Shown: positions 5,533 through 35,700 of the stretch, in pieces | Position numbering within the stretch: position 1 is the first letter of the stretch | Layout: each line of letters opens with the position of its first letter | NCBI GenBank assembly: GCA_903888345.1 | Contig: CAISTG010000002.1 | Coordinates: forward strand, 1 to 37,608 | Direction: 5' to 3' | Length of the DNA stretch: 37,608 bases | Source of the DNA: Candidatus Buchananbacteria bacterium | GTDB taxonomy: Bacteria > Patescibacteriota > Patescibacteriia > 2-01-FULL-39-33 | Notes under the pieces: generated by a model | Told to the model about the DNA's origin: nothing | Seen by the model: only the letters and a program-made list of their open reading frames with translations | Database searches by the model: none | Program-made: the position numbers and the translations under genes

Positions 5533-8500
5533 CTGAGCCCGCAGTCTCAGTCACTACTGACGCAGCAGCTGGAACAGCTGGAGTTTCCGGAGTTGCTGGA
5601 GTTTCACTAGCATCTGGTGTACTGGTTGGTATTTCAGTGGTAGTAGTAACCACCCCCTCTGACTGCTCAGTAGCAGAACTGGTCGCTGTTGTTTCTGCTC
5701 CACTTGCACCACTCCCTTCTAGAGGTGCATTAACTAGATTTTCAAAGGTGTTATCAGTACTGCTCGCCGAATAATCAATTACAGTCTCACGCTGGCCCAA
5801 AGCCACCCAATCAAAATACAGATCATCAGCCACTGGCGCATCGATAATAATCCAGAAACTGCTAGTTGATTTTTTGGTGACAGCATAACGAGCAAAGATC
5901 GAGCTGGTTGATAAATTCAAATTTAATAAGACCTTCGGGACGGAATTATAAGGTTTATCAAACTTAACTTCAATCGTAGTGGTGCCGGCAGGAATCATAA
6001 CCGTGCCTAATTGATCCTTATCAAGATACAATTTACCCTGAATTTCCACATCGTTCTTAAAGGTCACCTTGGCTTCAAAACCCGCTTCGCCAAAGACCGT
6101 CATCGTACCATAAAAACTCGAAGCAGTCGAAACGGTCAAGTTAGAAAAGCTATTATTATTACTATAAACAGTGAGGGTCGTATTATTGCTAGCAGTAGAA
6201 GTACTAACTTCATTCAAACGCGAAGTCAATTCCTTAATTTCTGCATTTTGATTTTGAGCAATCTGCAATAAATAGAAAGGTAAATGATCAGCACGATAAC
6301 CCTTATTGGTTCCATTCTCCATATAAAGTTCCGGCAAAGCCGCCTTGACTTCCTCAGCAATCAAACCGAAATCGCTCTGACCAGTGGCCTTCCAATCATA
6401 TGATTTAATTTGCAGACCCAACAAGGCATCGACATTCAAGGTAGTACTAGCAATATTATCCTTATATGTCCTGGATGACGGGTCAACATTAGTCAAAATT
6501 CCATTATAAGAATAAACCGTGCCATTGGTGCCCAAATCAGTGACCAAAACGCCATTACCACTGTCGAGTTCGATATAATTTGAACGCAATTTGAGATGGC
6601 CGGACTGATCCTCAAACGTAATGTCGGCACTTGTCACAAAACTAGCGTCAGCAAAAGAAAGGCCAACAGTATCGGATGAACCTAATGCTTCATAAATGCT
6701 ACTCGATGCATCATTAATAATAGCCAAACCATTTTTTACTGCGACCATTGAAACATCAGGGATGGACTGCCCAGCTAAAGCGGTGGTATGTCCTTCTAAT
6801 GCCAACCCCAGAGACATATGATTAATTGCCAAAGTATTCCCAATATCATCGCCGACTGTAATTAAAGGCGAAGTCGAGGCTCCCTTAATATTCAAATTGC
6901 CATTAGCAATAACCAAATCGACTGGATTAACAGAACCAATACCAGTGATATCACCGATGATCATGCTATTATTATTTGTATTATAAATTATTTTTCCGAC
7001 ATTCCCGGTATCGGCAAAATTCTCGGCAGCAAAAGCGAGTGATGGTAAGACGCTTCCACTAGCCGCTATTATCAAACTTCTATCAACCGCGCCAACAGTG
7101 GAATCACCAGGAAACTGAGAATTAAATTTAATCAAAGGAAGGCTGCCATTAGCATAGGTCCCGCTAAATGGCATATTTTCAACGGTCATATAATTGCTGC
7201 CAGCAACATCACCGATTTTAGAATCAAACGGCATCGTGGTGGTACCACCAAAATAATTTTGACCGAAAGCAGAATAAATTCCATAATTAGTGGAACTAGC
7301 AAAGATGGCATAACCGTTATTGGCATTATTCACGAACAATCCGGATATACTGAAATCATTAGTAGCCATACCCATCACACCGACAGCTGCACCATAACCA
7401 TTAACCCCAACTAGGCCCTCGCCCCTGACACCAACCCCATTATCAGAATAGCCATTTACCGAGGCCACCGTATCAGTTGCCATCGCCTCATCAAAATAAC
7501 CATAGCTTGTTTGGAAGGCAGTACTATAATCCAGACCACCGTAATTAATAGCATTATAGGAATAAATATTACCATCAGCAACGGTTAATTTTTCAGACGG
7601 ACCTGAAGTACCAATACCCACAAAAACTGCGTCAGCGCCAGTTCCACCTAAGGCCATCATATTTGAACCACTAACTTTGGCGTTATAGCCAATAGCCGTG
7701 GCATTGGTCAAGCTTGTAGTTGAGGCATTATTGCTATCACGCGAAGCACCATAACCGATGAAGGTCGAGTTTGTATCGATTACAGAATTATAATCAGAAA
7801 CAGTTCCACCGATACCCGTACCGGCAAAGGCGCCTAGAGCCGTCAGACCTTCAGTAGTGGAGCCGAATTTGAGCGACATATAGCCGCTAGCATTATTAAA
7901 TGAACCTGACACATTGCCATATAAAGAAAAATTTCCATTGGCAACATTATAATTTCCTGTTTTGTTTGATAATAATGAAGAAATGCCAAAACCAATATTA
8001 TCATGTCCCGTGGTATTGACGGAGAGTGAATATTGGCCAAAACCTAAATTTTGTATGCCAGTCATCGTCATATTGCCAGCACCACCATAAAAATAGTTAA
8101 GCTTACTGGTTGAGGCATAAGCCAGAACTACTCCATTATATTTCAAAGCGGTACCAGTCGCCATATTAATATCTCCACCAATCGTTAATCCACGAGAAGA
8201 ATCAATTGGCGATAAAGCCGTGCCCGAGTCCGCCCAATAATTAGTGCTACTGGAACTGCCACCAATCATACCCAAGGTAGAAGTCGACACCCATTTGGTT
8301 GAAGTGCCAGTACTCATTAAAATTTGGCCAGTTGTGCCAGCAGCATTAGTGGAATCCTTCAAATAACCACCAATAGCCAAGCCATTAGAGATCGTGACAT
8401 TACCGCTATTATCAATCACAAAGATGTTTTGGTTGGTGGAAGTAGCAACACGGAGCAAGGTAGTTGCTGATGATGCGCCATAAATATTCAAATAAGCATT

Positions 8501-20500: not shown

Positions 20501-23500
20501 GTTTTGAGTATAATCAACAACATTATAATAATGGTTGGTACTACCAGTAGTTAGGGCCATGTCACCATTAATTTCCAACTTATTAAGTGGGGTATTAGTA
20601 CCAATACCAACATAGCCAGTACTACTAACAAAGAGGGCTGACGCCGCAGAGGCAGTGGTGATATTTACAATAGCATTAGTTGAACTACCTTGGACATGTA
20701 ACCTGGCTGATGGTGAAGCAACACCGATACCCATATTTCCAGTAAACAAGACGTCACCATTACCCTTCCAAGTCTGAATGCCAGAGATTACTACTGAAGC
20801 ACCATTATCCGTTAACTTATCAACACGTAATGAGTCGGAAATATTAATATAGCGGAAGAACTGATTGCCAGCACTGTTGCCCGCTGTTTTCCAGTTAAGC
20901 GCACTCTCGGAGCCAGAGGCATACATGTTAATATAGGCTTGCGTTCCTTCAGCTTGAATAGTAGCCCAAGCAGCGCCTTGGTAGACATGTAAATTAGCCG
21001 AGGGGGTCGAAGTACCAATGCCAACTTTGCCAGTTGGCCCCATATACAACATCGACACGCCAGTCGATGAGACGACATTAATCGAAGGAATCCCAGCGGT
21101 CGTTTGCACATTCAACATCGCCACTTGAGAAGTCGTACCGACCGACAACATACTAGCTGTCGTCGTGGCCAAAGTTGTGGTACCGGCAAAAATATTAGTT
21201 CCAGTGGCAGTATTATTTGCACCAAGATTAAAATATGATGATGAAACGGCCATCCAGTAAGGATCAGTTTCGCTAACTAAGAAACCCAGAGAAGTTGTCG
21301 CGACCCAACGCGTCGAAGTGCCAGTGCTGATCAATACTTGCCCATTAGTGCCGATAGAATTAGTTGAATCCATTAAGTACCCGCCGATGTCTAAGCCGTT
21401 AGAGAAAGAGGCGTTGCCCCTCGCGTCAATAACAAAGATATTCTGATTGGTTGAAGTGGCGACTCGAAGTAAAGTGGTAGCGTTCGATGTGCCATAAATA
21501 TTTAAATTTGCGTTAGGAGTTGAAGTCCCGATGCCCACAAAAACAGCATCAGCACCAATACCACCTAAAGTTAACATATTGGATCCGCCAACTTTGGCGT
21601 TATAACCAATGGCTGTGGCATTGACAATACCAGTCGTTGAAGCGATATTGTTGTCTCGCGACGCACCAAAACCAATGAAGGTCGCGTTAGTATCGGTAAC
21701 AGAATTATAATTTGAAACGTTGTTAAGTCCAACGCCAGCCAAAGAACCAAATGCAGTCATACCATTAGTCGAAGAAGTGTAATACAGAGAAAAGAATCCG
21801 CTGGCGGTATTATTAAAGCCAGTAGAATTCGAGTTTAAGGAAAACGAGCCATTAGCCGTATTTTGATAACCGCTAGTGTTTTGAAGCAAAGCATAAAAAC
21901 CGTTGGCAGTATTATTACCACCAGCAGTGTTTGATCCCATAGCTAAATAGCCACTGGCAGTGTTCTGGAGTCCGGTAGAATTTACTGCCAAAGCTTGATT
22001 ACCAATTGCCGTGTTAGCCCCACCGACCATAGTTAAATTACCAGCGTTACCAAAGAAATAGTTACTCAGGGTTGTCGAAGCTAAAACTAAATTAGCACCA
22101 TTATATTTCAAGGTTGAACTCGCCATCATATTAACGTTACCGATAATCATTCCGATAGAGGTCGAGGCTAAGGTTGTGGTGCCCGTGAAAGTATTAGTAC
22201 CAGTAGCATTATTATTTGTACCTAATTTGAAATATGAAGAGGAGGCAGCTAACCAAATTGGATCGGTTTCAGTAACCGTCAAAGCTGTTGAGGAAACCCA
22301 GAGCGTTGAAGTTCCAGTACTGATCAAAACTTGGCCATTAATGCCAATGGCGTTCGTGGAATCTTTAAAATAACCACCGACCGCCAATCCATTAGTGAGA
22401 GAAACATTACCATTAGAATCAATAACGAAAATATTTTGATTAGTAGAAGTAGCGACACGTAAGAGAGTTGAAGTGGTTCCAAAAACGTTTAATTGCGCAT
22501 TGGGAGTAGAAGTGCCAATACCAATATTGCCACTCACTGCAACAAACAACATTGAGGCTCCAGTCGAGGAAACGACATTAAGTGCTGGCAATGAAGTGGT
22601 GGCCTGCACCGTCAAAGTAGCGCTGGCCGTAGTAGTGCCAACGCCCACCCCAAAACTAGATAAATCACCATTACCATTGGAAACTCCAGTGACTGATAAA
22701 ATTGGATTACCAGCGAGGTTGGCGGTATAAGAAACTGGTACGCCATTACTGGTTGAAGCCGTCAGCGGCATATCGGTCCAAGTAACAACACCCGAATCAG
22801 TCGGGAAAGAAATCGCACCGATTTCCATATTATCAATTGAAGTAACACCGGACGAAGAACTGTAAGTCAAGGCACCATTACCAACAACAAAATCATTGTA
22901 AATAGTAGTGGTACTGTTCGGCATCGAGACTGAACCAATACCAACATTTCCCTGACTCAAATCGCCGGTAATCAGATTGCCGATATTCAGCGAATTTGCG
23001 GTGGTGGTGGCAGCCGTTAATATTCCATTGCCAATAATAATATTGTTATAACCATTGATTAAATTACTGCCCGCGGCATTGCCAATGGCGATGTTGTTGT
23101 AACCAACCGTTAAGCCAGCTAATGATGAGGTACCAAAAGCCAAGTTGCCGTAGCCAGAAGTAACGGCAGTTAAAGCGCTATTACCAAAAGCCAGATTACT
23201 GCTACCACTAGTAACCAGGGTTAAAGTACTGGAACCAATGCCCAGGTTATCCATCCCCGTCATGCTCAAATTGCCAGCATTACCAAAAAAGAAATTGCTC
23301 AGCGTCGTTGACGCATAAGCTAAGTTAACGCCGTTATATTTATAATAACTACCCAATGAAAGATTCGTATCGCCATAAATATCCAATTTGAAAGCTGGGG
23401 CATTAGTACCAATTCCTACATTACCACTACCGGAGACTGCCAAGAGTGAAGCGCCCGTCGAAGAAGTTATGAGCAAGGCCGGAACACCCGCACCACCCTG

Positions 23501-24367
23501 TACATTAAGCATGGCGGTAATGGAAGAAGTTCCGACGGATAAGCGACTGATCGAAGTAGTCGCTAAGGTGGTGGTTCCAATACCCACTAAGTTGGTAGAG
23601 GTAACATTGGTTCCGGTCAGATTAGTAAAAATTCCCGTAAACGCATTCAAGGTCGTAGCGAATAAATTCGTTGTCGTAGCATTCGTGGTCGTCGAATTCG
23701 TCGCCGTTAGATTGGTAATCGTAGCAAACGTGGCCGTTAAATTATTAAAAAACGCCGAAAAAGCGTTGAGAATTGAGGCAAAAAAGTTAGTGGAAGTGGC
23801 GCGCGTCATCGACGCATTTTGCGCGAAGAAATTGGTCGAGGTTAGATTGGTAATCGTCGCTTGCGCGTTATCAAGATCCGAGCGTAATAAAGAAGTCGAA
23901 CCGACACCGCCAACCGTGCCAGCGTCGTTAGCATAAAGAGCGGCTGGAACCGCGCCAAGTTTTTTTCGTGGCGAGAGCACTACTGGGGTCGTGGTACCGA
24001 TAGAAACCTCCAAATAAAGCGGCTGATTAAAAAAAGAAACTGTTGTCGGCAAGGGATTAACCTCACCCAACATGACCGAAAATAAGCCATTAGTTAACGA
24101 AACTTTATTGGCGCCAGTACGTGTTTCCGTCCAGAGAGCGGCGCCACCAGTGGAACTAGCATAAAGCTTGAATTCCATGGCATAAGCACCATCATCAGCC
24201 ACGACATTGGAATGTGTTGTGAGTTTTCCTTGGTAGTTGATTTGCGGATTAAAGGCCGCTTGAGCAAAAGTTGATAAAAAACAAAAAACACCTAGTATTG
24301 TGACAAAAACAACACTAGCCGTGGCCCCGATTAGCCGGTTTCTTTTTTTGTTTTTAGTTACTTCCAT
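5489..24367 (-). CDS. Giant secreted modular repeat protein (6292 aa) with C-terminal S74/endosialidase-type chaperone domain
   Basis: Intact 18.9 kb frame; N-terminal signal/TM segment; repeated GNVGIGTSTPNA and LRVATSTNQNIFVIDxxGN modules; S74-like SSRTYKDNI...YDWKATGQSDFGLIAEEVKAALPELY; followed by a further beta domain. Confidence 0.93.
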   Translation of the reverse strand: MEVTKNKKRNRLIGATASVVFVTILGVFCFLSTFAQAAFNPQINYQGKLTTHSNVVADDGAYAMEFKLYASSTGGAALWTETRTGANKVSLTNGLFSVMLGEVNPLPTTVSFFNQPLYLEVSIGTTTPVVLSPRKKLGAVPAALYANDAGTVGGVGSTSLLRSDLDNAQATITNLTSTNFFAQNASMTRATSTNFFASILNAFSAFFNNLTATFATITNLTATNSTTTNATTTNLFATTLNAFTGIFTNLTGTNVTSTNLVGIGTTTLATTSISRLSVGTSSITAMLNVQGGAGVPALLITSSTGASLLAVSGSGNVGIGTNAPAFKLDIYGDTNLSLGSYYKYNGVNLAYASTTLSNFFFGNAGNLSMTGMDNLGIGSSTLTLVTSGSSNLAFGNSALTAVTSGYGNLAFGTSSLAGLTVGYNNIAIGNAAGSNLINGYNNIIIGNGILTAATTTANSLNIGNLITGDLSQGNVGIGSVSMPNSTTTIYNDFVVGNGALTYSSSSGVTSIDNMEIGAISFPTDSGVVTWTDMPLTASTSNGVPVSYTANLAGNPILSVTGVSNGNGDLSSFGVGVGTTTASATLTVQATTSLPALNVVSSTGASMLFVAVSGNIGIGTSTPNAQLNVFGTTSTLLRVATSTNQNIFVIDSNGNVSLTNGLAVGGYFKDSTNAIGINGQVLISTGTSTLWVSSTALTVTETDPIWLAASSSYFKLGTNNNATGTNTFTGTTTLASTSIGMIIGNVNMMASSTLKYNGANLVLASTTLSNYFFGNAGNLTMVGGANTAIGNQALAVNSTGLQNTASGYLAMGSNTAGGNNTANGFYALLQNTSGYQNTANGSFSLNSNSTGFNNTASGFFSLYYTSSTNGMTAFGSLAGVGLNNVSNYNSVTDTNATFIGFGASRDNNIASTTGIVNATAIGYNAKVGGSNMLTLGGIGADAVFVGIGTSTPNANLNIYGTSNATTLLRVATSTNQNIFVIDARGNASFSNGLDIGGYLMDSTNSIGTNGQVLISTGTSTRWVATTSLGFLVSETDPYWMAVSSSYFNLGANNTATGTNIFAGTTTLATTTASMLSVGTTSQVAMLNVQTTAGIPSINVVSSTGVSMLYMGPTGKVGIGTSTPSANLHVYQGAAWATIQAEGTQAYINMYASGSESALNWKTAGNSAGNQFFRYINISDSLRVDKLTDNGASVVISGIQTWKGNGDVLFTGNMGIGVASPSARLHVQGSSTNAIVNITTASAASALFVSSTGYVGIGTNTPLNKLEINGDMALTTGSTNHYYNVVDYTQNISSITGTGIISLPKFGSQTMLQIRISGYDYTSRGAWEILIGGYNFSDHNWYNSSIKYYGTPPFNQVRLANNSSTDLILLGNTSTTWAYPKFTVNEVIAGHTSITGWGTGWTTNISSTEPTLYNAVALNPKTFEDANGNFGIGTTTPNARLQVTNAAGTGNLLVLASSSNTALLTVNSNGYLSMGTTSAGSLLTLQTAAGTSALNIASSTGASMLYVAPSGNVGIGNSSARNQLTIGTIGSIGSDLDSNSALLVSQGSNTYALSFYKAGAVVGTEATIALGNQQAGGVAIPYAIIGDVIEDATGNAASGSFFIRTRRSGSIVEAVRVLSSGFVGVGTTTPNSLFNIFGTTSTLLRVATSTNQNIFVIDANGNASFSNGLDIGGYLMDSTNSIGTNGQVLISTGTSTRWVATTSLGFLVSETDPYWMSASSSYFKLGANNIATGTNAFTGTTTLATTTASMLSVGTTSQSSMFNIQGAVGVASLNITSSTGASLLTIAANGNVGIGTANPSVKLDVSGSEFVAYNVGNRFSSGIATPNGTYKNVFYNNSDTDAGRLALFNDVTGATGSVASPMTFKLTSTGDMTDGFGPGFLYAIEDNAGVENFIARTSAVRNGSDSIGKFQIDVSNDGTWGASATKLTVLSTGQIGIGTSTPGAMLSVQGTSTTPLLSVVTSSTASALYVAANGNVGVGTTSSIAKFSVMGTAGSNPIFDFVSSTGDSLAKMNANGQMYLYGTNFPQLTIDSAQHASIYLDRGGTGYTNQFRFLTAGAEKWRFGETDTTENLTYTYFNGNWVDALTLQYNTGNIGIGNNTPNAKLSIFGTTTDTLVRVATSTNQNIFVIDSSGNVTISNGLDIGGYLMDSTNSVGTNGQVLISTGTSTRWVASTTFGFLTTSTGLTTANFATNTISQWVNDAGYITSSIFATNNTWTGTNTFATATASRLAVGTTSQVSMLNIQGASGVSALNITSSTGASLLTILSNGNVGIGTSSPTNRLEVAGNTYLGGNLTVTGSGTFAGALSGSNLKQIQYSFAVPAAAGDAIGFATVTNSDFSSNVEIWLTIHSGGYAQSKRYIVPVQYNGTAGVWQKALPISTTGAYSGNDAEIDVMISGQIAAFRLRRTAGATAGTASITLAIGGDPAGTTVAASTTVFTAPSVTVNYAPTSLTMKNGRTGINNDAPTAYLDILGTTEQLRVGYDAANYLSATIGSTGLTTFNTIGTAPNFAFLGGNVGIGTSTPNAYLNVYGSSSAVTLLRVATSTNQNIFVIDASGNVSLSNGLAVGGYFKDSTNAIGNNGQILISTGTSTRWVATTSLGFLVSETDPYWMAASSSYFKLGANNTATGTNAFTGTTTLATTTASMLSIGTSSQSSMLNIQGASGVSALNITSSTGASMLYMTPNGNIGIGTTSPSSMLTLGNSGNSSGVITLNGISTNYGMVNQSIQNVMNGNNSMLYFNQVTGSAFTPNTVRFNGPNTGIESVNSNDYLGLRFMETYSTGFVGLVSTGAANGSVPANGWMMSMAFANNGKVGSVVPLTSLAAPTWRNVLDDGSGNMTITGNVGVGTSTPNANLNVFGTTNTLLRVATSTNQNIFVIDANGNASLSNGLSLGGYLKDSTNSTGVNGQILISTGTSTMWVSTTTLGYLTNYNSSTAQAVFAGVSSTNVTTTNLVVNSKLGIGTSTPTSQLHIFNPVYTGTPMVLLQGQNPSITQSIERDGGGVAFTAFDLNAKNTTTGLSADFGQIGVYGSLNSGVTAPSLLYMFFGAETDASYSTNTFRLYPNKTAYFDGNVGVGVLSPTVKLDVGGTASSTGLQVNGNGTITGNLGVTGMVTGSNLAVTNWNNVYNSWNASSSQWQTFWNVSNTVPYLSVNNTFTGINTFATTTATRLSVGTSSVTSMVNIQGAPGVSALNITSSTGASMVTVAANGNVGIGTASPSQPLEVNGRILSKEYNINNGYGTGEFRADSLNVRFGAIGALDFALNSQANVGIGIDTANVSTTRYFSIFANNYYARDAVELFRVQENGLVGIGTSTPNAYLTVFGTSSLATTLLRVATSTNQNIFVIDANGNATFSNGLDIGGYLMDSTNSIGTNGQILISTGTSTRWVATTSLGFLVSETDPYWMAASSSYFKLGANNTATGTNAFTGTTTLATTTASMLSIGTSSQSSMLNIQGAPGISALNISSSTGASMLYVAPNGNLGIGITTPASRLAIYSGDDKDTGPIINLGGSGVNQVESGRLRFTETNMAASPYYQGAFIHYNGSINTLNIGVHDTADAVQGSDVNAISIVRSSAYVGIGVLSPTVRLEVAGTASSTGLQVNGNGTITGNLGVTGTVTGSNLAVTNWNNVYASWNASSSQWQAFWNVSNTVPYLSVNNTFTGSNTFSGTTTLATTTASRVSIGTSSALSMLNIQGASGISTLNITSSTGSSTFAVAANGFVGIGTNAPTSALHIVTNSGQSSVDAMTLEAPFTGGSYVGILFKTAGTPYNMARISATANSELGGYRGLAFSVSNGAANPYEAVRISGTGNLGIGTSSPSAKLTVIGTTTDTLLRVATSTNQNIFVIDASGNVAISNGLDIGGYLMDSTNSIGTNGQVLISTGTSTKWVATTSFGFLTTSTGLTTANFSTNTISQWVNDAGYITSSIFATNNTWTGTNSFATETAARLSVGTTSVASMLNIQGASGVSALSITSSTGASMLYMAPNGFIGIGTSTPAVALDVNGGFKAIDTTSNIPFIFGEQGGVNRLRLYSSGPSIRFLDSGNSYANMGIGGLSIGNFATVSPTQNGIIVSGSVVIGTSTSWAKLSVQNAYGATQALFDVVTTTSATFATSSIFYVGSNGNVGIGTTTPSQKFVVNGNASINGTLTVASTTYIGDAGTGISFEKRYFAEATMATSLPVTLMKFNSSAANSVMNVGSMVGGISNGLYIAEPHTGSDRFPDLRFVGDGYAYGGDISYVAGIEFNTSTRRMEFDSYNGYNFGVSNSTSSNAFIINSDATTTGNFVASGNLTTGGTLKVASLNGLLLGTNGVVTAVSTSSLGLTVSAFATSSISQWVNNSGYITASALTPYLTTTTAAATYQLIGNYLTNYNSSTALAVFSGVSSTNVTTTNLVATGQTTLATTTSGRLSVGTTSATSMLNIQGASGVSALNITSSTGASMLYMAPNGYVGVGTTTPAVKFSVVDSGASNSTQIMNIKGGRTQSLSLYDDTFQSNGGGFYFNWYGQDTFFATNGVDVIKANGTIGIGTTTPNAKLSIFGTTTDTLLRVATSTNQNIFVIDANGNASFSNGLSLGGYFKDSTNSTGTNGQVLISTGTSTQWVSTSSLGITGGSGLAATAFTASGTGLTITTTTNSVQYGWTNPGYVSNYNSSTALALFSGVSSTNTTSTNLTVTGLTTLATTTASKLSVGTTSAIAMVNIQAAAGVYALNITSSTGASLLNIDNNGSVNVGAATQPADAYGPYSLYVVGPDAKNVFSIGNTAQTARASMFISAGSATAAVQFGTVTTNKFGLFTNNNSPQLTLSTNGGTAIGFTGYNNVSAPAEGLIVKGAGGFGTSTPNAFLHVYGSSSAIALLRVATSTNPNIFVVDGNGDVSMTGNLNMIGLTGNIITTSSIKLAIQDLDTRLYNQQNTTKEMTGFPNRTDTSLAFFDNTRAFQITGTNFKVYSSGKEYIKSSEVITIPNVTGLYFIYYDKTTAALSTSTTFWTLTDGTIPIVTIYWNATIQKGIMADERHGLTMDGATHAYLHSTVGTRYQSGLTGTFDNNRATTTAGVIWDEDIDLSIAQQVQFPVLYKIGTGWQFTAAQNAYYILQASNVLYNLGGTSTSTVGNNNYVAYWIVATDNVANPVVAIMGQSVDGSIANARTNNTWESLSFGTLPFSEMKVLYRVILRQVGGAAVYQEVQDLRSVSNLPSGTYVASSHGALSGLLNDDHTQYALLAGRDTGQSLFGGNASGTNLVIQGNSVDYGVVAVQPNGGAVNVGTTTSITAGSYIFNIASTTGANYLSVLKSGYVGVGTSTPNAYLNIYGASSATTLLRVATSTNQNIFVIDNSGNVTISNGLAIGGYLKDSTNAAGTTGQILMSTGTSTKWVSTSTLGMIGGSSSSTNYWADSGTALSPIDSSRGLTIGGDINMATGTALKYNGVVLAYASTSKLNYFYGGAGNMTMTGIQNLGFGQYSLSVNTTGHDNIGFGISSLLSNKTGNYNVANGNFSLYGNVSGSFNNASGYMSLKFGSTTEGLTALGAFAGTGIGGTVSDYNSVIDTNSTFIGYGASRDSNNASTTSLTNATAIGYNAKVSGSNMMALGGTGADAVFVGIGTSGPSEKLTVADGNIYSYNAINYGGLDYSTAFQTSYGYFDEAMATDTVASVNGYSDNGVGVRGEGLVGVNGYGAAVGVMGMATNDFSISGLFVNNANNGYAIFASSTNYGIYSAFGQNYFGGTTTMPFDSKIGDVAGSNYMTVENMPFSGTYANGSLPLIKFNSQFPGDSTVGAVDRSLIIAASGSVLPSLAFAAENFADTGNVGKIIYNTNNNSMIIGDITGIGSVNPVDLVIANGNLNIKGASTSPLITVGDDIGNTLAINHMSLGLALEGHTTALAGQSIPDVSMVAVKNGLAIINDASSSIYEALGSSDTVGLSFADASFVTSADITFEDQSGHLKLRSNYIELDSGNGVLVTDLGTNGTVYSYNGILTNVDPSSRTYKDNIASTTLNVDALLGLQIKSYDWKATGQSDFGLIAEEVKAALPELYMENGTNKGYRADHLPFYLLQIAQNQNAEIKELTSRLNEVSTSTASNNTTLTVYSNNNSFSNLTVSTASSFYGTMTVFGEAGFEAKVTFKNDVEIQGKLYLDKDQLGTVMIPAGTTTIEVKFDKPYNSVPKVLLNLNLSTSSIFARYAVTKKSTSSFWIIIDAPVADDLYFDWVALGQRETVIDYSASSTDNTFENLVNAPLEGSGASGAETTATSSATEQSEGVVTTTTEIPTSTPDASETPATPETPAVPAAASVVTETAGSDSGSSLPTGQAGPE
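5785..6020 (-). other. Post-chaperone C-terminal beta domain (H-type-lectin-like?) of giant 1
   Basis: AGTTTIEVKFDKPYNSVPKVLLNLN...YAVTKKSTSSFWIIIDAPVADDLYFDWVALG; clearly paralogous to the giant 2 C-terminus. Confidence 0.5.
6220..6487 (-). other. S74-type intramolecular chaperone domain of giant 1
   Basis: SSRTYKDNI retains the Ser and Lys of the S(D)xxxK(x)N(I) pattern; GLIAEEV; ends in coiled-coil-like AQNQNAEIKELTSRL. Confidence 0.8.
8421..22440 (-). repeat. About 11 copies of the scaffold module LRVATSTN(Q/P)NIFV(I/V)D in giant 1
   Basis: DNA copies seen near 22421, 21428, 19403, 17987, 16717, 15741, 14341, 12843, 10718, 9795 and 8413; irregular spacing of about 0.9-2.1 kb. Confidence 0.9.
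8715..9735 (-). other. Unique non-repeat insert in giant 1, resembling phage structural/tail-associated domains
   Basis: IKLAIQDLDTRLYNQ...ADERHGLTMDGATHAYLHSTVGTRYQSG...SSHGALSGLLNDDHTQYALLAGR. Confidence 0.5.
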
Positions 24368-24453: not shown

Positions 24454-24462
24454 ATTATAACA
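24454..24462 (-). promoter_or_regulatory. Extended -10 (TGTTATAAT) of giant 1
   Basis: Plus-strand ATTATAACA; the 14-mer ATTATAACACAAAA is identical upstream of giant 2. Confidence 0.6.
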
Positions 24463-24494
24463 CAAAACCAGCTATAAATCATAGCTGGTTTTGT
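24462..24494 (-). terminator. Perfect 14-bp hairpin between the 541-aa gene and giant 1 (terminator and/or regulatory)
   Basis: ACAAAACCAGCTAT (24462-24475) - AAATC - ATAGCTGGTTTTGT (24481-24494). Confidence 0.7.
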
Positions 24495-24500
24495 GGATAA
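24492..24500 (-). promoter_or_regulatory. DnaA-box-like TTATCCACA upstream of giant 1
   Basis: Plus-strand TGTGGATAA, exact match to the classical DnaA box; within a 15-mer TTGTGGATAACTTTT also found at 29474. Confidence 0.5.
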
Positions 24501-24513: not shown

Positions 24514-26139
24514 TTACTCGATATTTTTGCGATTTTTAAACTGAAACCTCCTTAATAATAACCATAAAATCAACAGGAATATTATCAGCCACCACCAATA
24601 CTGTAGTAGCCAAACATTAAGTTTATAATATATGCCCGCATAGCACTCTAGTGGTCGTCCCCAACAAACTTGCTGTGGCATCTGCTGGATCACTTTTAAA
24701 TATGATTGCAAGAGCTCTTCGGAATTAGCTTTCAGTCTACCTTGAATATCGCGAATTGGTAAATCGTGTTGATCGTAAAGAATTATATTAACCTGATAAT
24801 CTCCTGGTAAGAGTCCAGCTAGGGTTGCGCTCAATCTTGTACCATTACAATCACGCGACAATAAATATTGCTGAAAAGAATTCTGACCGGTAATAACTAG
24901 TACTAAATTTTTAATTTGCGGTGGCACTTTACTGGCTGAGATCGCCACCGTTAACGGTGCTCGTGAAGAGTTTAATGTTACTAAATCCCTTAAAAATGGC
25001 AGTTTTTGACCGGAATTAATGAAATCAAAGTCATATAGACTCAAACGATATATATTTTCCAGCGCCTCAGCCGATAAAGACGGTGGCACAATTTCAATTT
25101 CAGGCTGAACAATAAATATCGGAATTGACTGAAACATAATGACGGCCGTCAACACTCCCGAAGACACGCGTGAACCATCGGTTGTAAACACTGTATAGTA
25201 CGAAGTGCGATTATTAAAAGTCCGATCCCAAGCCATTAATTTCCCCTCTTGCAGCTTACCTGCACCACGGTAGATAAGTTCACCAGTAGTTAAGCTTGGA
25301 TAAAAATCGAAGCTACGACGAATTATTACTTCCTGATAATTTTTGTTTGCCGGATCAGTCCAGCTCAGCTGTGCTTGATGGTCTTTGACCTGAACCGTCA
25401 AGTCATTAACATTTACTAAGGGTTGCTCTGCTGGCGGCACTGGCGCAATTTCTTCTTTCAATAAAAAAGAAATATTTTGCAAGAAAGCCTCATGATTTAA
25501 GGTGTCTTTACAAAAAATTTTAAAATAATAAGGGGTATTTACAGCCAAATTCGATAAAGTCACTGAATGTGACTGCGTAATAAACGCTTCTGTTGATAAT
25601 CCCAAGGCATAATATAAATTAGTGCCCCATGACAATTGGCACGAAGCGTCATGATTAGTGGTCCAATCAATAACGGTTTCACTTTTACTCTTTTGGGAAA
25701 TTTTTAAATTTTCGATCAACAAATTAGTGATCCCTCCGCCACCGCCTCCCCCACCTATTGCCGGACAGTCCGCCGCACATAAAGCGTTATTCTCAGACCA
25801 ATCACAAACGCCGTTACCACAATGACAATCAATCGCACAATTTCCGAAATTCTCACCTAGACCCGAGTCACAAACTCCATTACCACAAGTCGAAGTTAAA
25901 CAGTCAACTGCACAATTACCGACATTTTCCAGTCGATCAGTCTCGCAAATACCATTATTGTTACAACCGCAATCAGTTGAACAAGTGACATCATTTTCAC
26001 CATAAACCGTCTCACAAATAGCATTGTTATTGCAAGAAAAAACCGTAACTTCTACTGGATACTGAACAGTGGCAGCCCCAACCGGCAGGGCTGCCAAAAA
26101 AAATAACGGTAAAAAAAATTGTAAAAGTTTGAATTTCAT
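24514..26139 (-). CDS. Secreted/membrane-anchored protein: signal peptide, four Cys repeats, polyglycine linker, FnIII-like domains, C-terminal TM helix
   Basis: CGNGVCDxGENxxNCAxDC-type repeats; GGGGGGGG; ASCQLSWGTNLYYALGLS...TPYYFKIFC; C-terminal LLQYWWWLIIFLLILWLLLRR. Confidence 0.8.
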   Translation of the reverse strand: MKFKLLQFFLPLFFLAALPVGAATVQYPVEVTVFSCNNNAICETVYGENDVTCSTDCGCNNNGICETDRLENVGNCAVDCLTSTCGNGVCDSGLGENFGNCAIDCHCGNGVCDWSENNALCAADCPAIGGGGGGGGITNLLIENLKISQKSKSETVIDWTTNHDASCQLSWGTNLYYALGLSTEAFITQSHSVTLSNLAVNTPYYFKIFCKDTLNHEAFLQNISFLLKEEIAPVPPAEQPLVNVNDLTVQVKDHQAQLSWTDPANKNYQEVIIRRSFDFYPSLTTGELIYRGAGKLQEGKLMAWDRTFNNRTSYYTVFTTDGSRVSSGVLTAVIMFQSIPIFIVQPEIEIVPPSLSAEALENIYRLSLYDFDFINSGQKLPFLRDLVTLNSSRAPLTVAISASKVPPQIKNLVLVITGQNSFQQYLLSRDCNGTRLSATLAGLLPGDYQVNIILYDQHDLPIRDIQGRLKANSEELLQSYLKVIQQMPQQVCWGRPLECYAGIYYKLNVWLLQYWWWLIIFLLILWLLLRRFQFKNRKNIE

Positions 26140-26141
26140 GA

Positions 26142-26972
26142 TTAATTCATGAAGGCCGTAATAATTACTAAAGCCTGATAAACACCAGCAGCCTGAATGT
26201 TATCCGGACCCGACTCAGCCATAAATTCTAAAACCGTATCGGAGCCACCAGCCAAATCGTTAGCAAAAGTTGTATAACTTAAATTGGTATTAGTTGTTTT
26301 TAAGGGCGCCCAGCAAGTTTCTGGTGTTGCCGCGTCAGTAGCTTGGTTACAAGCCGAGCCATTATCTCGAAAGAACGGCACAATATCTGGTCCATCAGCC
26401 GTAAAACCAAACGCCGATTGCGACATCGGAATATTCCAATAGTAATCAGGCGAGGTCGAAGTCGCGGTTGTATAGTTAGCAAAAAAACTACTGGTAGAAG
26501 TCGATTGCAAAGCAGGCGACGTGCTAGCTCGCGCCATTAAAGTGTAACCACCCGGACTATTAGTTAGAACGTGCACTGCTGAATACTCCGAAGCAGTACC
26601 ACCGGAAACACCATAAATAACCGGCAATAAGAAGATTTTCTCCGGCACGCTTAAAGATAAGTAACGCTCACCGCCGTTTTGCTGATAACCAGCATGCAAG
26701 TCATAAGCGGTGTTAGAAGAATATCCGGTACCAACATCACCCAAAGTATCTTCAAGATTATTATCGCCATTAGCCGCTAAACCACCGCCGAAATTTACAG
26801 AATCCGACTGCAAATAATAGGTGCCATTTGACATTACATAAGCCAAAATAGGCGTTGCCAAGGAAACGCCTATTAAGGTTACTAAAATATAAATTGTGAG
26901 CGATAATTTTGAACTAGTTGGTTCTCGGTTCGCGTCCGAATTAACGCTTCTTTTTCGGTTTAAGCTGAACAT
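26142..26972 (-). CDS. Secreted WxL-like protein (276 aa), distant paralogue of the 220/224-aa proteins
   Basis: N-terminal TM/signal; SPGGYTLMARASTSPALQSTST; C-terminal GVYQALVIITAFMN; start overlaps the 3' end of the upstream gene. Confidence 0.6.
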   Translation of the reverse strand: MFSLNRKRSVNSDANREPTSSKLSLTIYILVTLIGVSLATPILAYVMSNGTYYLQSDSVNFGGGLAANGDNNLEDTLGDVGTGYSSNTAYDLHAGYQQNGGERYLSLSVPEKIFLLPVIYGVSGGTASEYSAVHVLTNSPGGYTLMARASTSPALQSTSTSSFFANYTTATSTSPDYYWNIPMSQSAFGFTADGPDIVPFFRDNGSACNQATDAATPETCWAPLKTTNTNLSYTTFANDLAGGSDTVLEFMAESGPDNIQAAGVYQALVIITAFMN

Positions 26973-27945
26973 TATCCTTTAGCCACTTAATAATTAATCT
27001 AATAATTAACACTAATAAAGCTAAGGCGATTAAGACTCCGATCACTAACTTCCAAGAGATGATCAAGAAGCCGACGGACTTTTCCGAAAATTGATTATTA
27101 AAACCGTAATTTAATTTAAGGGTAGCGGTATAGTAGCCTAAGCGAAAGCCATTACCAGTCCATTTGACCTGATTGGTACGTAACGCATCAGGTAAGGTAT
27201 AAAATGGCAGAACTTCAACTGAATCAATAACTGAACCATAAAGATTCTTAATAGTAATACTACCATAAGGATTAGCATAGACACTGCCGGTATTTTCATA
27301 AGAAAAACCAAAGTTGACTGGGGTTTGATCGTAGTAGAATTTATCAGCACTAAAGTTCAATAAATTACCAGATTCCTTAACATCACCCTTAATTCTGACA
27401 AAAAACAACACAGCAATACGCGAAACAACCTTCACATTACCAGTCGCCTCTTCCGCGTTATAACCTGGAGAGTTAGGATCTTCTTTGGTAGTAACGATAA
27501 TCGAGCCATATAAGCCACCCGGAACCGCATCTTTAGGAATAGTGACACGAACCGGAACAGTAATACGGTCACCTGGTTGTAAAGTAAAAGTAGTAGCTTC
27601 AGGAATTAAGTAATCTCTTAAGGAATATGGACCTTTAAGAGCACCCAATAGCTCTAAATTGACACCATTTTCACGCGAACCCTTAAAATCCTCTAGATCC
27701 AATTGAAAGGTTTTAGGCGTTGCAAAACGATTGACAACCGTTATGTTCTTGATGATTGTCTGTCCAGGGGAGGCTAGTAACTCTACCTTTCCCGGGCCGA
27801 CAACATAATCATTAGATATAACCATGTTGGGGTTCTTTTCGATGGAGGTTGCTGCTTGAGCACTACTAGCAGTAACTAAAAGTAAACCCAGAGCGATAGC
27901 CGCCACTGGCAAATATCTATTAATTAATGAAACTACTTTGTTCAT
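26941..27945 (-). CDS. DUF916/WxIP-like membrane protein (334 aa) with C-terminal TM and basic tail
   Basis: Signal peptide; VVGPGKVELLASPGQTIIKNITVVNRFATPKTFQLDLEDF; IPKDAVPGGLYGSIIV; C-terminal TM LVIGVLIALALLVLIIRLIIKWLKDNVQLKPKKKR. Confidence 0.65.
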   Translation of the reverse strand: MNKVVSLINRYLPVAAIALGLLLVTASSAQAATSIEKNPNMVISNDYVVGPGKVELLASPGQTIIKNITVVNRFATPKTFQLDLEDFKGSRENGVNLELLGALKGPYSLRDYLIPEATTFTLQPGDRITVPVRVTIPKDAVPGGLYGSIIVTTKEDPNSPGYNAEEATGNVKVVSRIAVLFFVRIKGDVKESGNLLNFSADKFYYDQTPVNFGFSYENTGSVYANPYGSITIKNLYGSVIDSVEVLPFYTLPDALRTNQVKWTGNGFRLGYYTATLKLNYGFNNQFSEKSVGFLIISWKLVIGVLIALALLVLIIRLIIKWLKDNVQLKPKKKR

Positions 27946-27986
27946 AAAATTTTAATTTAATAAATGAGCGATTAAATATATAAAAA

Positions 27987-28649
27987 TTAATTCATGTAGG
28001 CGGTAACCGTGGTCCAACTGCGGTATAACCCAGAAGGTTGTGATGCACCCGCTAAGACTTGTGCCTGATAATTCATGACGATTGATTCACCGGCAATAGC
28101 AGTTGGTACGGACGCGGACGCAATCGTTATCGGTGATGTACCATTAAAACCAGTATATTTAGCACCAGAAAAATTTGAAGAGGCGTAATTTCCAGTCACA
28201 TTGAAGCCGAATTTACTAGAAGAGGCAACAGTCGGTGCCGACCAGGTCGCAAAAGCAACGGCGGCATCAGGAAAATTAATAGTGGTCGAGACTACACCAA
28301 CAAGAGCCGGTGAAGTCGAAGCTTTAGCCGTCATCGTCCAACCGTCATAGTTATTCGTCTTAACAACACAACCTCGAGAAGCGGTGGCCGTACCACCAGT
28401 CATACCAGCGATATTAGTTAACATAGTCGAAGTTGCAACGTCACAAGACAAGGTCAACTCAGAAGTAACGGTTAACTCAACCGGGTACGTTAGACCGACA
28501 GAGCCGGCGCTAGACGTAACAGTCGTCGTAACCGTAGAAGAGGCCGCAGCAACAGTAATACTTTCAAGCAAAATGAAAGCATTAGTGATGGCAAAAACTA
28601 ACAACAAAACAGCTGATAGATTTTTGATTTGGGTTTTTGCTTTAAGCAT
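27987..28649 (-). CDS. Secreted WxL-like protein (220 aa)
   Basis: Signal peptide; LSCDVATSTMLTNIAGMTGGTATASRGCVVKTNNYDGWTMTAKAST; C-terminal SGLYRSWTTVTAYMN. Confidence 0.6.
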   Translation of the reverse strand: MLKAKTQIKNLSAVLLLVFAITNAFILLESITVAAASSTVTTTVTSSAGSVGLTYPVELTVTSELTLSCDVATSTMLTNIAGMTGGTATASRGCVVKTNNYDGWTMTAKASTSPALVGVVSTTINFPDAAVAFATWSAPTVASSSKFGFNVTGNYASSNFSGAKYTGFNGTSPITIASASVPTAIAGESIVMNYQAQVLAGASQPSGLYRSWTTVTAYMN

Positions 28650-28717
28650 ACTTTTAAATTAAATTGATGTTGGTAGCGATTATATTTTAAAATTGTGACT
28701 AAATTAACAATTAAATA

Positions 28718-29380
28718 CTAATTCATATAAGCGGTGATCGTGGTCCAGTTACGATATAATCCAGAAGGCTGCGATGAGCCGGAGGCGACTTGTGCCTGAT
28801 AGTTCATAACCACCGATTCACCATTAACTGAAGTTGGGACGGTTGAAGTAGCGATAGTTATTGGCGATACACCATTAAACCCTAGGTAGTTAGTGCCATT
28901 ACTAAATGAACTAACCGCTCTGGCTCCACTAACAGAAAAACCAAATAAACCGCCTGTACCTGGGGCTCCCCAGGCTGTTGGAGTACTAGTACCATCATCG
29001 GCAAAATTTATTGTAGTCGAGGCGACATTTACTAAGGCTGGGGTAGTTGAAGCTTTGGTAGTCATGGTCCAGCCAGCATAATTATTGGTTTTCACAATAC
29101 AACCACGAGCGGCGGTAGCTGTACCACCAGAGATACCAGCGATATTACTCAACATAGTGGTGGTAGCCACATCACAAGTCAAAGATAACTCCGATGTAAC
29201 AGCCAACTCCACTGGGTAAGTTAAACCAACTGAACCGGCGCTGGAAGTAACGGTGGTCGTAACAGTTGATGAGGCCGCGCTCACTACAGTTCCCTCAATT
29301 AAAAGAAATAAATTACCAAGCAACATTACTGCCAGCAGAAAGAACGACAAGGATTTAAAAATTTTACTAGTTTTAGACAT
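28718..29380 (-). CDS. Secreted WxL-like protein, tandem paralogue of the 220-aa protein
   Basis: Colinear with the neighbouring gene; C-terminal SGLYRNWTTITAYMN. Supplied ORF starts at a TTG (29392); ATG at 29380 (MSKTSK...) is likelier. Confidence 0.6.
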   Translation of the reverse strand: MSKTSKIFKSLSFFLLAVMLLGNLFLLIEGTVVSAASSTVTTTVTSSAGSVGLTYPVELAVTSELSLTCDVATTTMLSNIAGISGGTATAARGCIVKTNNYAGWTMTTKASTTPALVNVASTTINFADDGTSTPTAWGAPGTGGLFGFSVSGARAVSSFSNGTNYLGFNGVSPITIATSTVPTSVNGESVVMNYQAQVASGSSQPSGLYRNWTTITAYMN

Positions 29381-29438
29381 AAATGCTAGCAATTTAAGGC
29401 AGCTGATACTCGAATTGAGTAACTAATTTACTTAATAT

Positions 29439-29787: not shown

Positions 29788-32700
29788 TTACTCGTTAGGA
29801 GTAGCTACGGCTGGCTCAGGAGTGACGACCCCTTCGAGCGACTGGGCGATCGTCGTCGGTATTTCCAGCTCAGCTGGAGGATTAGTAGCGGTTACGGCCG
29901 GCAATTCAAAATTAGTACTACTAGAGGTTGAGCTAACAGTCGCAGTTGGTTCCGTTAAAATTGGGTTGGCAATCGCGTCAATTACAGGATTTGACGGTGT
30001 TAAGTTGCCCTCAACCTCAATCGAACCGACAGCAATCCAATCAAAATAGACGTCGGTAGACAAAGATCTTTCTAAGACAATCGAGAAAGACTCCTTCGAT
30101 TTATTAATAATATTATAATTAATGAAGGTCGGAGTGCCCGAAGCCGAAATATTAGCTACGATTCTTGGGGTTGAAATATAAGGCTGACTAAAGACCACTT
30201 GGGCCGTCGTCGTTCCGGCTTTAATAATGATTTCACCGGCCGAATCTTGACTTACGTAAATTTTATCCTTAAAATTAACTTCCTTTTCAAAAGTAACCTT
30301 TGACTTAAAGCCGGCGGCACCAATAACTGTCATCTCACCATAGAAGGTAGCTGCGGAAGTCACGCGTAAAGTGTTAAATCGTGGATTCGCTTCAGTAACC
30401 TCTAAACCATCAATGCCCGTGCTAGCACTATTTAAAACTAACTTTTTCGACAGTTCAGTTACCTGCTGTTGTAAAGCTTTAATGCCAATTAAAGCGACTC
30501 CGGCCGGATCGATTGTCGAAATAGCTGTATCTGTACCACCCAAACCAAAGGCGGCATAAAAATCTTGGGCCACTGGCCCTAAATGTTTGATGCCAGATGA
30601 TTCCACCTTATAATTCCACAATTGCACCGGCAAATTAACAATTTTATTCAAAATGTCATTAGCATCAACATCGGTAAAATTCTCTTTCAAATTACGATCA
30701 GAGGAGTTAGTCCAAACCCCGCCAGCCGTCAAACTAGCACCAGAATTTGCAAAAATCACCGCTGATGACGAAGCAGTGGTCGTACCCAGCAATAAAGTTC
30801 CAAATAGGGTCGTCGTTGCTAAAGTTGACGTTTGGCTAACCCGTAAAGTATAGGCGATGGTCGTTGAGGCATTAATGCGTAAGTTCTGTGAGGCGGGAGT
30901 GGCATTAAATGTTCCATATAACAAAGCCCCAGCCTTATCACCCGCCGTTGAACCGCGATCCTGATTATCGACATAGAAGGAGTCTGAACCGAGCTCATAT
31001 TCACCGGCTGAAAAGCCGACGGCCACATTATTCGATCCAGCCGAACTATTCAACAAGGCATTAACACCGATAACAGTATTATTTGCACCGGTAGCGTTAT
31101 TATGCAAAGAATAATGGCCGACAGCAGTATTAAAATCGCCACTACTGCGATGATACATCGAATTGGAGCCGACTGCGACGTTACCGCTTGCTCCGACATT
31201 AGTATAGAGTGCCTGCTTGCCCAAACCAACGTTTTCGATACCGGTAGAATTAGAATATAATGTTTGATAACCAAAAGCGGTATTGTCGCTAGCTACATTA
31301 GTATAAAGAGATTGATAACCTACTGAAACATTGCGATGACCACTGGAATTAGAAAAGAGTGAAAACTGACCTAAGGCTGTATTATAAGTACCACCGGCGT
31401 TAGTATACATTGACTGATCACCAATTGCGGTATTATAAGAACCATCATTGTTAAATAAGGACTTGAAACCTAGAGCCGTATTTTGAAGGCCGGATTGCGC
31501 CTTAAGTAATGCCTGATAACCAACTCCAGTATTTTCACTAGCATTCGTCGTACTAGCTAAGGCTTGAAAACCGACACCAGTATTATAGGTGCCAGTCATA
31601 GTTAAATTTCCCGCACCACCAAAAAAATAATTACCAGCGGTTGAGGTACCATAAGCCAAATTTATCCCATTTAATTTATAAACTCCCCCGTCTAAAATCT
31701 GAATATTACCGGCCACAGTCAGCTTATCGGTTACTGTTGAAGTGCCAACTGCAATGCTACCGAGAGCATAATAAATATTGCTACCAGAAGTAATCCATTG
31801 TGAACTCGCACCGCCAAGACAATTGATACCATCGATAGAGAAGCAGCTGGCGGTAGTAGTTCCCGTAACATTAACGTTACCCACAACCGACAACCTTTGG
31901 GCTGGCGTCGAAGTTCCGATTCCGAGATTACCTGCATTATTTATAACGAAAATATTTTGATTAGTCGAAGTTGCTACTCGTAATAAGTTGTTAGTTGCTG
32001 AAGCGCCAAAAATATTAAGATAACTATTAGGGGTTGAGGTGCCAACTCCGACAAACACGGCATTAGTGCTGGTGCCACCCAAAACTAACATATTAGATCC
32101 ACCGACCTTGGCGTTATAACCAAGAGCGGTTGCATTTACAACTGGCGTAGAAGTGGCAATATTAGAATCGCGAGAAGCATAAGCACCAATGTAAGTAGAG
32201 CTAGCATCCGCAATTGAATAATAGCCACCTAGATAATAAGCATCGGAACCAACCCCCGCCAGATAACCATTGGCCGTATTATAGGAACCAGTTTCATTAT
32301 AAGCTAAGGCATAAAATCCCTGGATCGTGTTATATGACCCCGAAGTATTAGCAAACATGGCGTTATCACCAACTGCCGTATTGTTATTGCCAGATATATT
32401 CTTTGACATAGCAGAATGACCAAAAGCAGAATTGGCACTGCCACTAGTAACTTGCCAGAGGGCATTGGCACCGAAACCAACGTTTTGACTACCACTCATT
32501 GTAGAATTACCAGCATTACCAAAAAAATAATTGGCCTTACTTGTGCTAGCGAATGCAAAATTTAGGCCATCATACTTATAATAATTGCCAGCCGTTATAT
32601 TAATACTACCATCAATGCTTAATTTATCTGACGGCGTCGAAGAGCCAATCCCAACATTGCCGACATTATAATAGATACTACTGCCATTATTGAGCCATGG

Positions 32701-35700
32701 GGATCCACCTGGACCACCAGCGATACAATTAATACCATCAACAGTAAAACAAGCCGCCGTAGTAGTACCAGAGATATAAGCATTTCCAGTTACTGATAAC
32801 TTTTGACTCGGTGTCGTTGAACCGATACCGATATTGCCAGAAAGTAAATCGCCATAAAGCGCATTGCCAATATTTAGATAGTTGTTGGAATTACTCCCCA
32901 GCGCCTGCGTGCTACTGCCGATTAAAATATTATTCGAACCAGTATCCAAATAATAACCAGCTAAATCACCAAGCAAAACATTGCCCGCTCCGGAAGTCAA
33001 ATGGAAGCCAGCATTGAAACCCAACAAACTATTATAACTTCCATTAGATAAATTCAAACCAGATTGGTATCCGATAATCGTATTAAAGTTATTGACGGAG
33101 GTCGAGGTCCCATAACCAGCTTGGAAACCAATCACAACATTGCCAGTTGAAGAAGCTGTCCAATACATTGCACCATAGCCCATGGCAGTATTGTTAACGC
33201 CGGTACCATTCGAATAAAGAGCTAGACCGCCAACTGCGGTATTTTCACTACCACTAATGTTATTTTGAAGAGCACCAGCGCCAATTGCTGTATTAAGGTA
33301 GCCATTTTCATTATTGAAAAGTGAACGCTGACCAACACCAGTATTGCTATTTCCGGTCGAAGAAGAGTTACCAGAATTACCGAAATAATAATTAAATAAG
33401 GTTGTTGATGCTTGAGCAATTATCCTTCCATCTAACCAATAAGCATTGCCCGGGCTAACTCGAATACTACCATTAACGTCAAGGGCAACCGTCGGATTAT
33501 TAGTGCCAATACCGACATTACCCTGATTATTAACCACTAAGATATTTTGATTAGTTAAGGTAGCAATATGCAATAAAGTTGTAGCCGATGAAGAACCGAA
33601 GACCGTTAAATTAGCGTCCGGAGTCGTGGTACCAATACCAACCTTGCCATCTTTGATGGCCATCGCTATAACTGGCGCAATAGCTACCTTATTTACAAAT
33701 AAAATAGTGTCATCGTTCGTAGTGCCTAAAAATAAACTATGACCTGCCTGCGCTTGCAAGCCGAAGGAACCGGTGGGAATACCGTTATAGAAATTGTAAT
33801 TGGAGGAAACCGAAAACAATGATCCAGCTTGGCCAGCATCATTAAATAATCTAACTTCGGCCGTGGCGGAAGTTCCCGAATTACTGTTCTCAACAATCAT
33901 GCCGCCAGCATTGCTATCTCGATTATATTTAACATGCAAATCATAAGTTGGACTATTAGTGCCGATGCCAATATTGCCATTATTAGAGACATGAAGTAAT
34001 GAAGCTCCAGTAGAAGAAGTAATACTCAATAAAGGTAAAGTACTGGCCGATGACGTTCCCTGAATTGCCAATAAAGCTATCGCTGTAGAAGTGCCGATCT
34101 GTAAATGACCAGAACTATCGATAGTAGATAAAATGGAGCCAGTATAATTTTGCCATTCTTGCAAATTAGCGGTTTGGGTTGATGCTCCCTGAATAATTAA
34201 ACCTTTTTCCGTATTAAATGTTGGTGCGAGATGTAATTTAGCTAATGGGTTTGGAGGTGGAATTGTACTATTACCTAATGCCAATTCTTGAATCACCAAT
34301 TCCCCACCCTCAGAAGCACTAACATTAATTCGGTAGTATCGATAGTGGACAGTGGATACCAAATTATAATTTCTAACCTCAAGTAGTGTCCAGGCTGGAG
34401 CATTTGTTTGAGTATCTAGTACCGTCCAACTGGAATCATCATTCGAACCTTCAAAGGTCCAAGTTTTAGGCGCCGAACTAACACCCAAATAGGAGCCGGG
34501 GCCAGTCACCTGATAGCCATTAACATACGTCTGACTGCCAAAATTAAGCTTCACCCACCCATCATTTGTTGCTGATATCCAGCCTAAAGTATCAGTTCGA
34601 CCATCAAAGGCCATCCAGGCACCTTGGCCGCCATAAACGCTCGATGCCGATGTATCATAAGGCGCCGGCACCGTATTAGACGTCATTGTTGGTGAAACCT
34701 GAGTAAAAATAAATTCCTGCGGAATCGGACCGACCGCCAAACGCTTATTGGTGTCATCCCAATAAAAATTCGCGTTATTTTGGGTTATTGTTTCTCCGGC
34801 ACCAGCAAATAACACCGATCCCTTAACTATCCCAGCCAAATTAACGCCGCCACTAGCCAAACAATTAATACCATCTACCGTAAAGCAGGCAGCGGTGGTC
34901 GTGCCCGTAATATAGGCATTACCATTAACTGTTAATTTTTCGTTTGGATTTTCAGTACCGATACCAACATTACCTTTATTATTACTACCAATAAAATTAA
35001 AACTGCCATAATCATTGATGAAATTAAAATTACCAGTATTGTAGTTAAAGGCAACGGCGGTTGTTGTAGTTAAAGCATTATTACCTAAAACAAAGCCAAC
35101 CGATGACGGCAAACTTAGCACATCAAACAAAGAATAATCACTGGATGGCGTCAAAATTAAGCCATCTTTAAAAGACAATGCCGAGGCGCTATTGCCACTC
35201 AAATCAATCGTACCCTTAGCACTAATAACTCCCGCTCCACCATCAATCGAATCACTATACAACTTCCAAGAAATTAGTGGGTCTGCCTTATCATCAACAT
35301 AGATTAGCGGTTCAGAGTTAAGACCAGAAACTGTTAATTGAGCCTTAGGAGTTGTGGTGCCAATACCAACGTTGCCAGTAGCAAAATAAATGTCACTACC
35401 ACTAGTCAGCCACGGCGAGCTCCCTAGACCACCCGTAATACAATTAACACCGTCTACCGTAAAACAAGCAGCCGTAGTGGTGCCAGAGATATAAGCGTCG
35501 CCACTAACCGTTAACTTCCGTGACGGTGTCGAAGTCCCGATACCGACATTGCCCAAATTACTAACTACTAAAATCTTCTGGTTTGTCGAAGTTGCGACTC
35601 GCAACAAATAATTACTGGCCGAATCACCATAAATATTTAAATAGGCATTAGGTGTCGAAGTCCCGATACCCACCAAAACAGCATTAGAGCTAGTTCCACC

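Follow-up and report, generated by a model that had tools for sequence, protein, structure and literature searches.

A run of genes for secreted and membrane-anchored proteins, set between two giant Peptidase_S74 genes in a member of Candidatus Buchananbacteria, raises the question of what kind of surface structure such a locus encodes. An earlier note, made from the sequence alone, had proposed an analogue, in the candidate phyla radiation (CPR), of the WxL/DUF916 cell-surface complexes of Gram-positive bacteria. Descriptions of WxL clusters come almost exclusively from Lactobacillales and Bacillales (PMC10599100), and no paper combining the WxL domain with the candidate phyla radiation was found in the literature searched. 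The window analyzed here, i.e., the whole stretch of 37,608 nucleotides, is the entire contig C2 of a 1.39-Mb genome in 66 contigs.

Organization of the locus

Analysis of the open reading frames in the window revealed five consecutive genes on the minus strand, bracketed by two giant genes. The genes of recA, a RodZ-like HTH protein, and ftsK lie elsewhere in the window on the same strand. The features of the locus are listed below; S, B, and C denote the families of the small secreted proteins, the 334-residue protein, and the Cys-repeat protein, and E values for S are those of an S profile built without the window's proteins.

29788..37278, minus strand: giant protein of 2,496 aa with an N-terminal INYQGKL-type domain; Peptidase_S74 at about 30547-30702 (PF13884, E 7.8e-11)
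28718..29392, minus strand: S224, short-type secreted small subunit; TTG start, with an ATG at 29380 that would give 220 aa (S profile, E 1.3e-24)
27987..28649, minus strand: S220, short-type secreted small subunit of 220 aa, 67% identical to S224 (S profile, E 2.2e-26)
26941..27945, minus strand: B334, WxLIP/DUF916-like two-domain protein with signal peptide, C-terminal transmembrane (TM) helix, and basic tail (PF06030, PDB profile, and Foldseek)
26142..26972, minus strand: S276, long-type secreted small subunit of 276 aa (S profile, E 8.8e-63)
24514..26139, minus strand: C541, Cys-repeat/Gly hinge/FnIII-like/TM protein of 541 aa (FnIII, E 3.3e-4)
24461..24495, no strand: putative element lying between C541 and the giant that follows it, an inverted repeat of 15 bp (sequence scan)
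5489..24367, minus strand: giant protein of 6,292 aa with the same N-terminal domain; Peptidase_S74 at about 6326-6478 (PF13884, E 6.3e-9; H_lectin, E 0.0016, below cut-off)

The five genes look like an operon because they are spaced by 68, 41, -32, and 2 bp in order: the third and fourth genes (B334 and S276) share 32 bp, and 2 bp separate the fourth from the fifth (C541). A scan of the sigma-70 consensus revealed no excess of promoter-like sites. C541 contains four C-rich CGNGxC...DC repeats and a C-terminal TM helix, and its FnIII match is weak and below the cut-off. The architecture described in the earlier note was recovered in each of its parts, namely, the five consecutive minus-strand genes, the three related secreted small proteins (one family by the profile built without them), the 334-residue protein with signal peptide and C-terminal TM helix, the Cys-repeat/FnIII-like TM protein, and the two bracketing giants, in both of which Peptidase_S74 scores above the cut-off.

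The 334-residue protein is a diverged WxLIP homologue

The earlier note had regarded B334 as the counterpart of DUF916. Searched alone, B334 matched PF06030, the WxLIP peptidoglycan-binding domain (PGBD), with 17.6 bits (E 0.0039), a score that does not reach the curated cut-off of 27.3 bits; a phmmer search of the Protein Data Bank (PDB) returned EfmWxLIP1 as the sole entry (E 0.11). A search of the genome contigs with the single B sequence gave no matches, and the alignment-based search succeeded. The B alignment comprised 31 homologues, drawn from related genomes as well as from that of the window. Its profile, searched against all PDB sequences, identified the Enterococcus protein EfmWxLIP1 (9i25 and 9i1y) with an E value of 8.6e-7 and nothing else below 0.3. 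PF06030 was matched by 23 of the 31 homologues at an E value of ≤1 (best, 1.5e-7), and its curated cut-off was passed by at least one of them (from locus L047, 28.3 bits). The PDB profile and the PF06030 matches indicate that the first domain of the B family is homologous to the PGBD.

The AlphaFold (AF2) model of B334 (pLDDT 90.8) consists of two beta-sandwich domains followed by a C-terminal TM helix (residues 298-325). In a Foldseek search of the PDB with this model, WxLIP chains occupied ranks 1 to 3, with 9i25_C giving an E value of 1.2e-13 over 272 alignment columns; the top entry is described as WxLIP "bound to long WxL." The chaperones CfaA, CsuC, and FimC of chaperone-usher systems were among the next 50 matches. 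The global TM score against WxLIP was modest (0.39-0.47, rmsd 9.7), so the angle or orientation between the two domains of B334 probably differs from that in WxLIP. For the second domain, B334 gave no Pfam match to DUF3324/HBD, which is also missing from the 25 families that the 31 homologues match most often. The NQIDKxxxYFDLK motif is absent from B334, where the matching stretch reads NDYVVGPGKVELLASPGQ and is not conserved across the B family. The profile, Foldseek, and PF06030 matches identify B334 as a true, though highly diverged, homologue of WxLIP (DUF916 type).

In the known systems, the predicted role of a hairpin in the first WxLIP domain is to enter WxL and complete the WxL sandwich (PMC10599100). 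The only long low-confidence loop within the beta domains of B334 lies between strands 143-154 (F1) and 176-185 (G1) and aligns with the corresponding segment of WxLIP. We infer that this WxLIP segment is the hairpin itself. The G1 strand of the B family retains alternating hydrophobic residues in the pattern V-x-SRxG-x-L-x-V-x-G.

Two further observations concern the distribution of B-like proteins. In four loci (L041, L048, L051, and L067), 2 to 4 longer proteins of about 310-580 aa beside B, mostly with a TM helix, match the B profile, which suggests a duplication of the scaffold. A B-like match outside Patescibacteria occurs in Omnitrophota (L107; tblastn, E 9e-9).

The small secreted proteins belong to the Pam pilin family

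The profile built without the window's proteins recovered all three S proteins, although S276 shares only 25-27% identity with S220 and S224. A scan of the S family against NCBIfam revealed matches to "CPR-type pilus protein PamT" in 20 of 28 members (best, 1e-47) and to "Pam pilus system pilin subunit" (Pam pilin_C) in 14 of 28 (best, 2e-45), some S proteins of relatives scoring well above the NF058581 pilin cut-off. One and the same profile recovered the window's S proteins (1e-24 to 9e-63) and the Pam pilins above the cut-off (4e-10 to 8e-36). The window's S proteins themselves gave no match to the NCBIfam Pam models, and their genome contains no pilin_C match at an E value of ≤10; S252, from a second cluster in the same genome, matched PamT with 1.2e-12, below the cut-off. 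The curated models miss the window's S proteins because these are too diverged. As judged from the profile matches, the S family is homologous to the Pam pilins of CPR bacteria.

The AF2 model of S276 has a core with a pLDDT of about 90 and a disordered N-terminal segment. Its Foldseek matches in the PDB are donor-strand pilins, of which the best, a weak one, is CfaB (E 1.2e-3; TM score 0.54 on the target), and WxL chains were not among the best PDB fold matches. Within residues of about 50-100, S276 carries an SxNYxIxxD..SxGG...DTxGE segment that is conserved in the long-type S proteins and predicted to be disordered on its own; it is possible that this segment is a donor segment.

The earlier note had interpreted the small proteins as WxL-like and as wall- or partner-binding subunits. 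PF13731 matched neither of the two S alignments (28 rows each, partly shared) nor any other protein of the window's genome, and the W-x-L motif is absent from S220, S224, and S276. Comparison by hhalign of S with an intermediate set of 14 WxL-type CPR proteins, 13 of which match PF13731, gave probabilities of 12-46% on only a 27-residue terminal GxYxxTxT strand. The subthreshold matches of the CPR WxL-type profile were rich in S proteins; these scored no better than shuffled or reversed versions of themselves (AUC 0.56 and 0.54), so the weak enrichment is compositional. By the Pfam, NCBIfam, PDB, and hhalign searches, together with the shuffled and reversed controls, S is not detectably WxL. 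Because S belongs to the Pam pilin family and the WxL tests were negative, the wall-binding WxL reading was replaced by that of a pilin-type subunit.

Gene order and co-occurrence in relatives

In non-redundant loci, an S gene directly adjoins B for 60 of 71 B genes (upstream in 50 and downstream in 37), and a C-type gene lies at most two genes from B in 43 of 71. The commonest order in named loci, S-B-S-C, is conserved across Patescibacteria, the C family following the second S gene. Among 146 genomes of the phylum, B was found in 78 and S in 58, the two occurring together in 56 (Fisher P 1.6e-19); the S and B profiles had been built from B-centred loci, and the genome search itself was blind to position. 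A same-strand B gene was found no more than 300 bp away for 43 of the best 83 S matches and no more than 6 kb away for 67 of them. The co-occurrence that the earlier note had expected in relatives is borne out by these counts.

In the four genomes with the strongest PamR matches, a B gene lies directly between a Pam pilin gene and a PamR gene (G066 C5, G123 C1, G105 C10, and G088 C1, the pilin stretch of the last being partial). PamR matches are above the cut-off in G066, G123, and G088 and just below it in G105. No similarity to PamR was detected in the window, including C541 and S276, and the rest of its genome gave only an unrelated weak match on contig C34 (E 0.045). In some Patescibacteria, 12 of 15 WxL (PF13731) matches lie within 6 kb of a same-strand B gene. 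Because B is found in both, it is what Pam-type and WxL-type loci have in common. In other lineages of Patescibacteria, small WxL proteins of the PF13731 type were observed near B-type proteins (L110, L113, L115-L118, and L120).

The window's genome contains a second cluster on contig C28, with B308, S252, and a 930-aa C-type protein; a giant of 3,845 aa follows at a distance of about 5 kb downstream. Clean profiles place the S domain at the C terminus of several large proteins of relatives and separate the C family from S, with one weak exception (L049). An S domain at the N terminus of large C-type proteins was an artefact of a contaminated profile.

Giant S74 proteins recur beside the cluster

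The window's genome contains seven S74 open frames of 2,504-6,307 aa on contigs C2, C3, C24 (three of them), and C28, which add up to about 88 kb, or 6% of the genome. Of 71 non-redundant loci, many of them cut by contig ends, 27 have a gene with the N-terminal domain of the window's giants near the cluster, usually downstream; in L056, L064, and L065, S74 genes end just upstream of S. A search of 58 genomes gave 28 S74 genes, about 9 of which are no more than 10 kb away from B, compared to about one expected by a rough estimate. The link between the giants and the cluster, suggested earlier from their flanking position, is thus seen in relatives as well.

In neither giant is the S74 domain C-terminal: about 250-280 residues lie beyond it (within 5489-6988 and 29788-31287), and in the larger giant this C-terminal stretch gives a sub-cut-off match to H-type lectins. 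Given these residues, auto-cleavage would release or separate the lectin-like end.

Comparison with known systems and a possible mechanism

The locus is real, conserved, and ordered and is a divergent variant of a system already named by NCBIfam, i.e., the Pam pilus (NF058581 Pam_pilin_C, NF058579 PamT, and NF058578 PamR). No paper describing the Pam pilus, PamT, or PamR was found in the literature searched. The locus resembles Pam loci in that the S family includes the curated pilins, B homologues of relatives occur between Pam pilin and PamR genes, and secreted subunits are encoded beside a membrane-anchored partner. It differs in that the curated pilin model does not detect the window's S proteins, the cluster has no PamR gene, B is followed by a second S gene and C541, and giants lie on either side. 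The WxL/WxLIP (csc) clusters of Lactobacillales and Bacillales, represented by EfmWxLIP1, share with it the signal peptide, two Ig-like domains, and C-terminal TM helix of B334, the PGBD-homologous first domain, the pairing of a single protein of this type with at least two partner-domain proteins, and a C-terminal partner domain in large proteins of relatives. In contrast to those clusters, the partners in the window are not WxL, B334 has neither a DUF3324 sequence match nor NQIDKxxxYFDLK, and the host belongs to the CPR. Chaperone-usher systems (CfaA/CfaB, CsuC/CsuA-B, and FimC) are similar in fold, B matching the chaperones and S276 the pilins, and in the long flexible F1-G1 loop of B334; this likeness is one of predicted fold, and B is TM anchored. 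CPR bacteria are not known to have an outer membrane (a monoderm envelope is expected), and for this reason no usher is expected.

On balance, we consider it probable that the genes form a divergent Pam-type pilus or surface-fibre cluster and that B, anchored in the membrane, is a chaperone-like partner of S, which it completes through its F1-G1 hairpin. S224, S220, and S276 would be exported, pilin-type beta-sandwich subunits, and B334 their WxLIP-type partner with two Ig domains, anchored in the cytoplasmic membrane. PapD-type chaperones complete pilins with their G1 strand. By analogy with such chaperones and with the predicted insertion of WxLIP into WxL, the hairpin of B334 (about residues 143-185) would most likely insert a strand into an incomplete S sandwich; B would thereby hold the S subunits at the membrane or pass them to a growing structure, in which S may polymerise. 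C541 may act as a further scaffold anchored in the membrane. The S74 giants on either side probably form trimeric fibres, which would be displayed with the structure, possibly in contact with it, and would serve in attachment to a host or a surface. Counting against this reading are the failure of the window's S proteins to reach the curated Pam models, the missing PamR gene, the weak Foldseek matches and disordered N-terminal segment of S276, and the modest global TM score of B334. The earlier proposal of the 334-residue protein as membrane partner of the small proteins stands.

Two other explanations were weighed. The cluster could be the CPR counterpart of the WxL system itself, with S proteins acting as single, unpolymerised wall- or partner-binding subunits docked on B and with the large proteins that end in an S domain as displayed adhesins. 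B is indeed a WxLIP homologue, most of the PF13731 matches in some Patescibacteria lie close to B, and the S domain is C-terminal in several large proteins, as WxL is in large WxL proteins (PMC9772566). However, S lacks PF13731, shows only the short hhalign match and scores no better than those of the shuffled and reversed controls, and overlaps with the curated Pam pilins, which makes this explanation rather unlikely. The analogy drawn in the earlier note accordingly holds for the membrane partner and is not supported for the small proteins, which are of the Pam pilin family. Still less probable is that the S74 giants simply adjoin the S-B-S-C operon, independently of it, in an island of surface-protein genes. 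Such independence would fit with the giants elsewhere in the genome that have no detected adjoining B (three on C24 and one on C3) and with the many clusters without a visible giant, but it is at odds with the recurrence of the giants' N-terminal domain near the cluster, in spite of the contig ends, and with the estimated excess of S74 genes within 10 kb of B.

Implications

What is new under the divergent Pam-type reading is that B is homologous to WxLIP, that B has a place in Pam loci, and that giant S74 fibres are repeatedly associated with the cluster. The cluster connects two systems that had not previously been linked, the Pam pilus of the CPR and the WxL complexes on the surface of Gram-positive bacteria, and a WxLIP homologue is present in about half of the sampled Patescibacteria genomes, fixed beside Pam-type pilins. 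A broader and tentative idea, to which we give little weight, is that of a donor-strand pilus which Patescibacteria assemble on the cytoplasmic membrane without an usher, with WxLIP-type proteins as the anchored chaperone or platform, Gram-positive WxL as a non-polymerising or diverged relative, and giant S74 fibres displayed for attachment to prey or host. A role is thus proposed for B, a neighbour in Pam loci for which no NCBIfam name turned up in the present analysis, and a structural hypothesis for the assembly of surface pili in these epibionts is provided: the F1-G1 hairpin of B should complete S.
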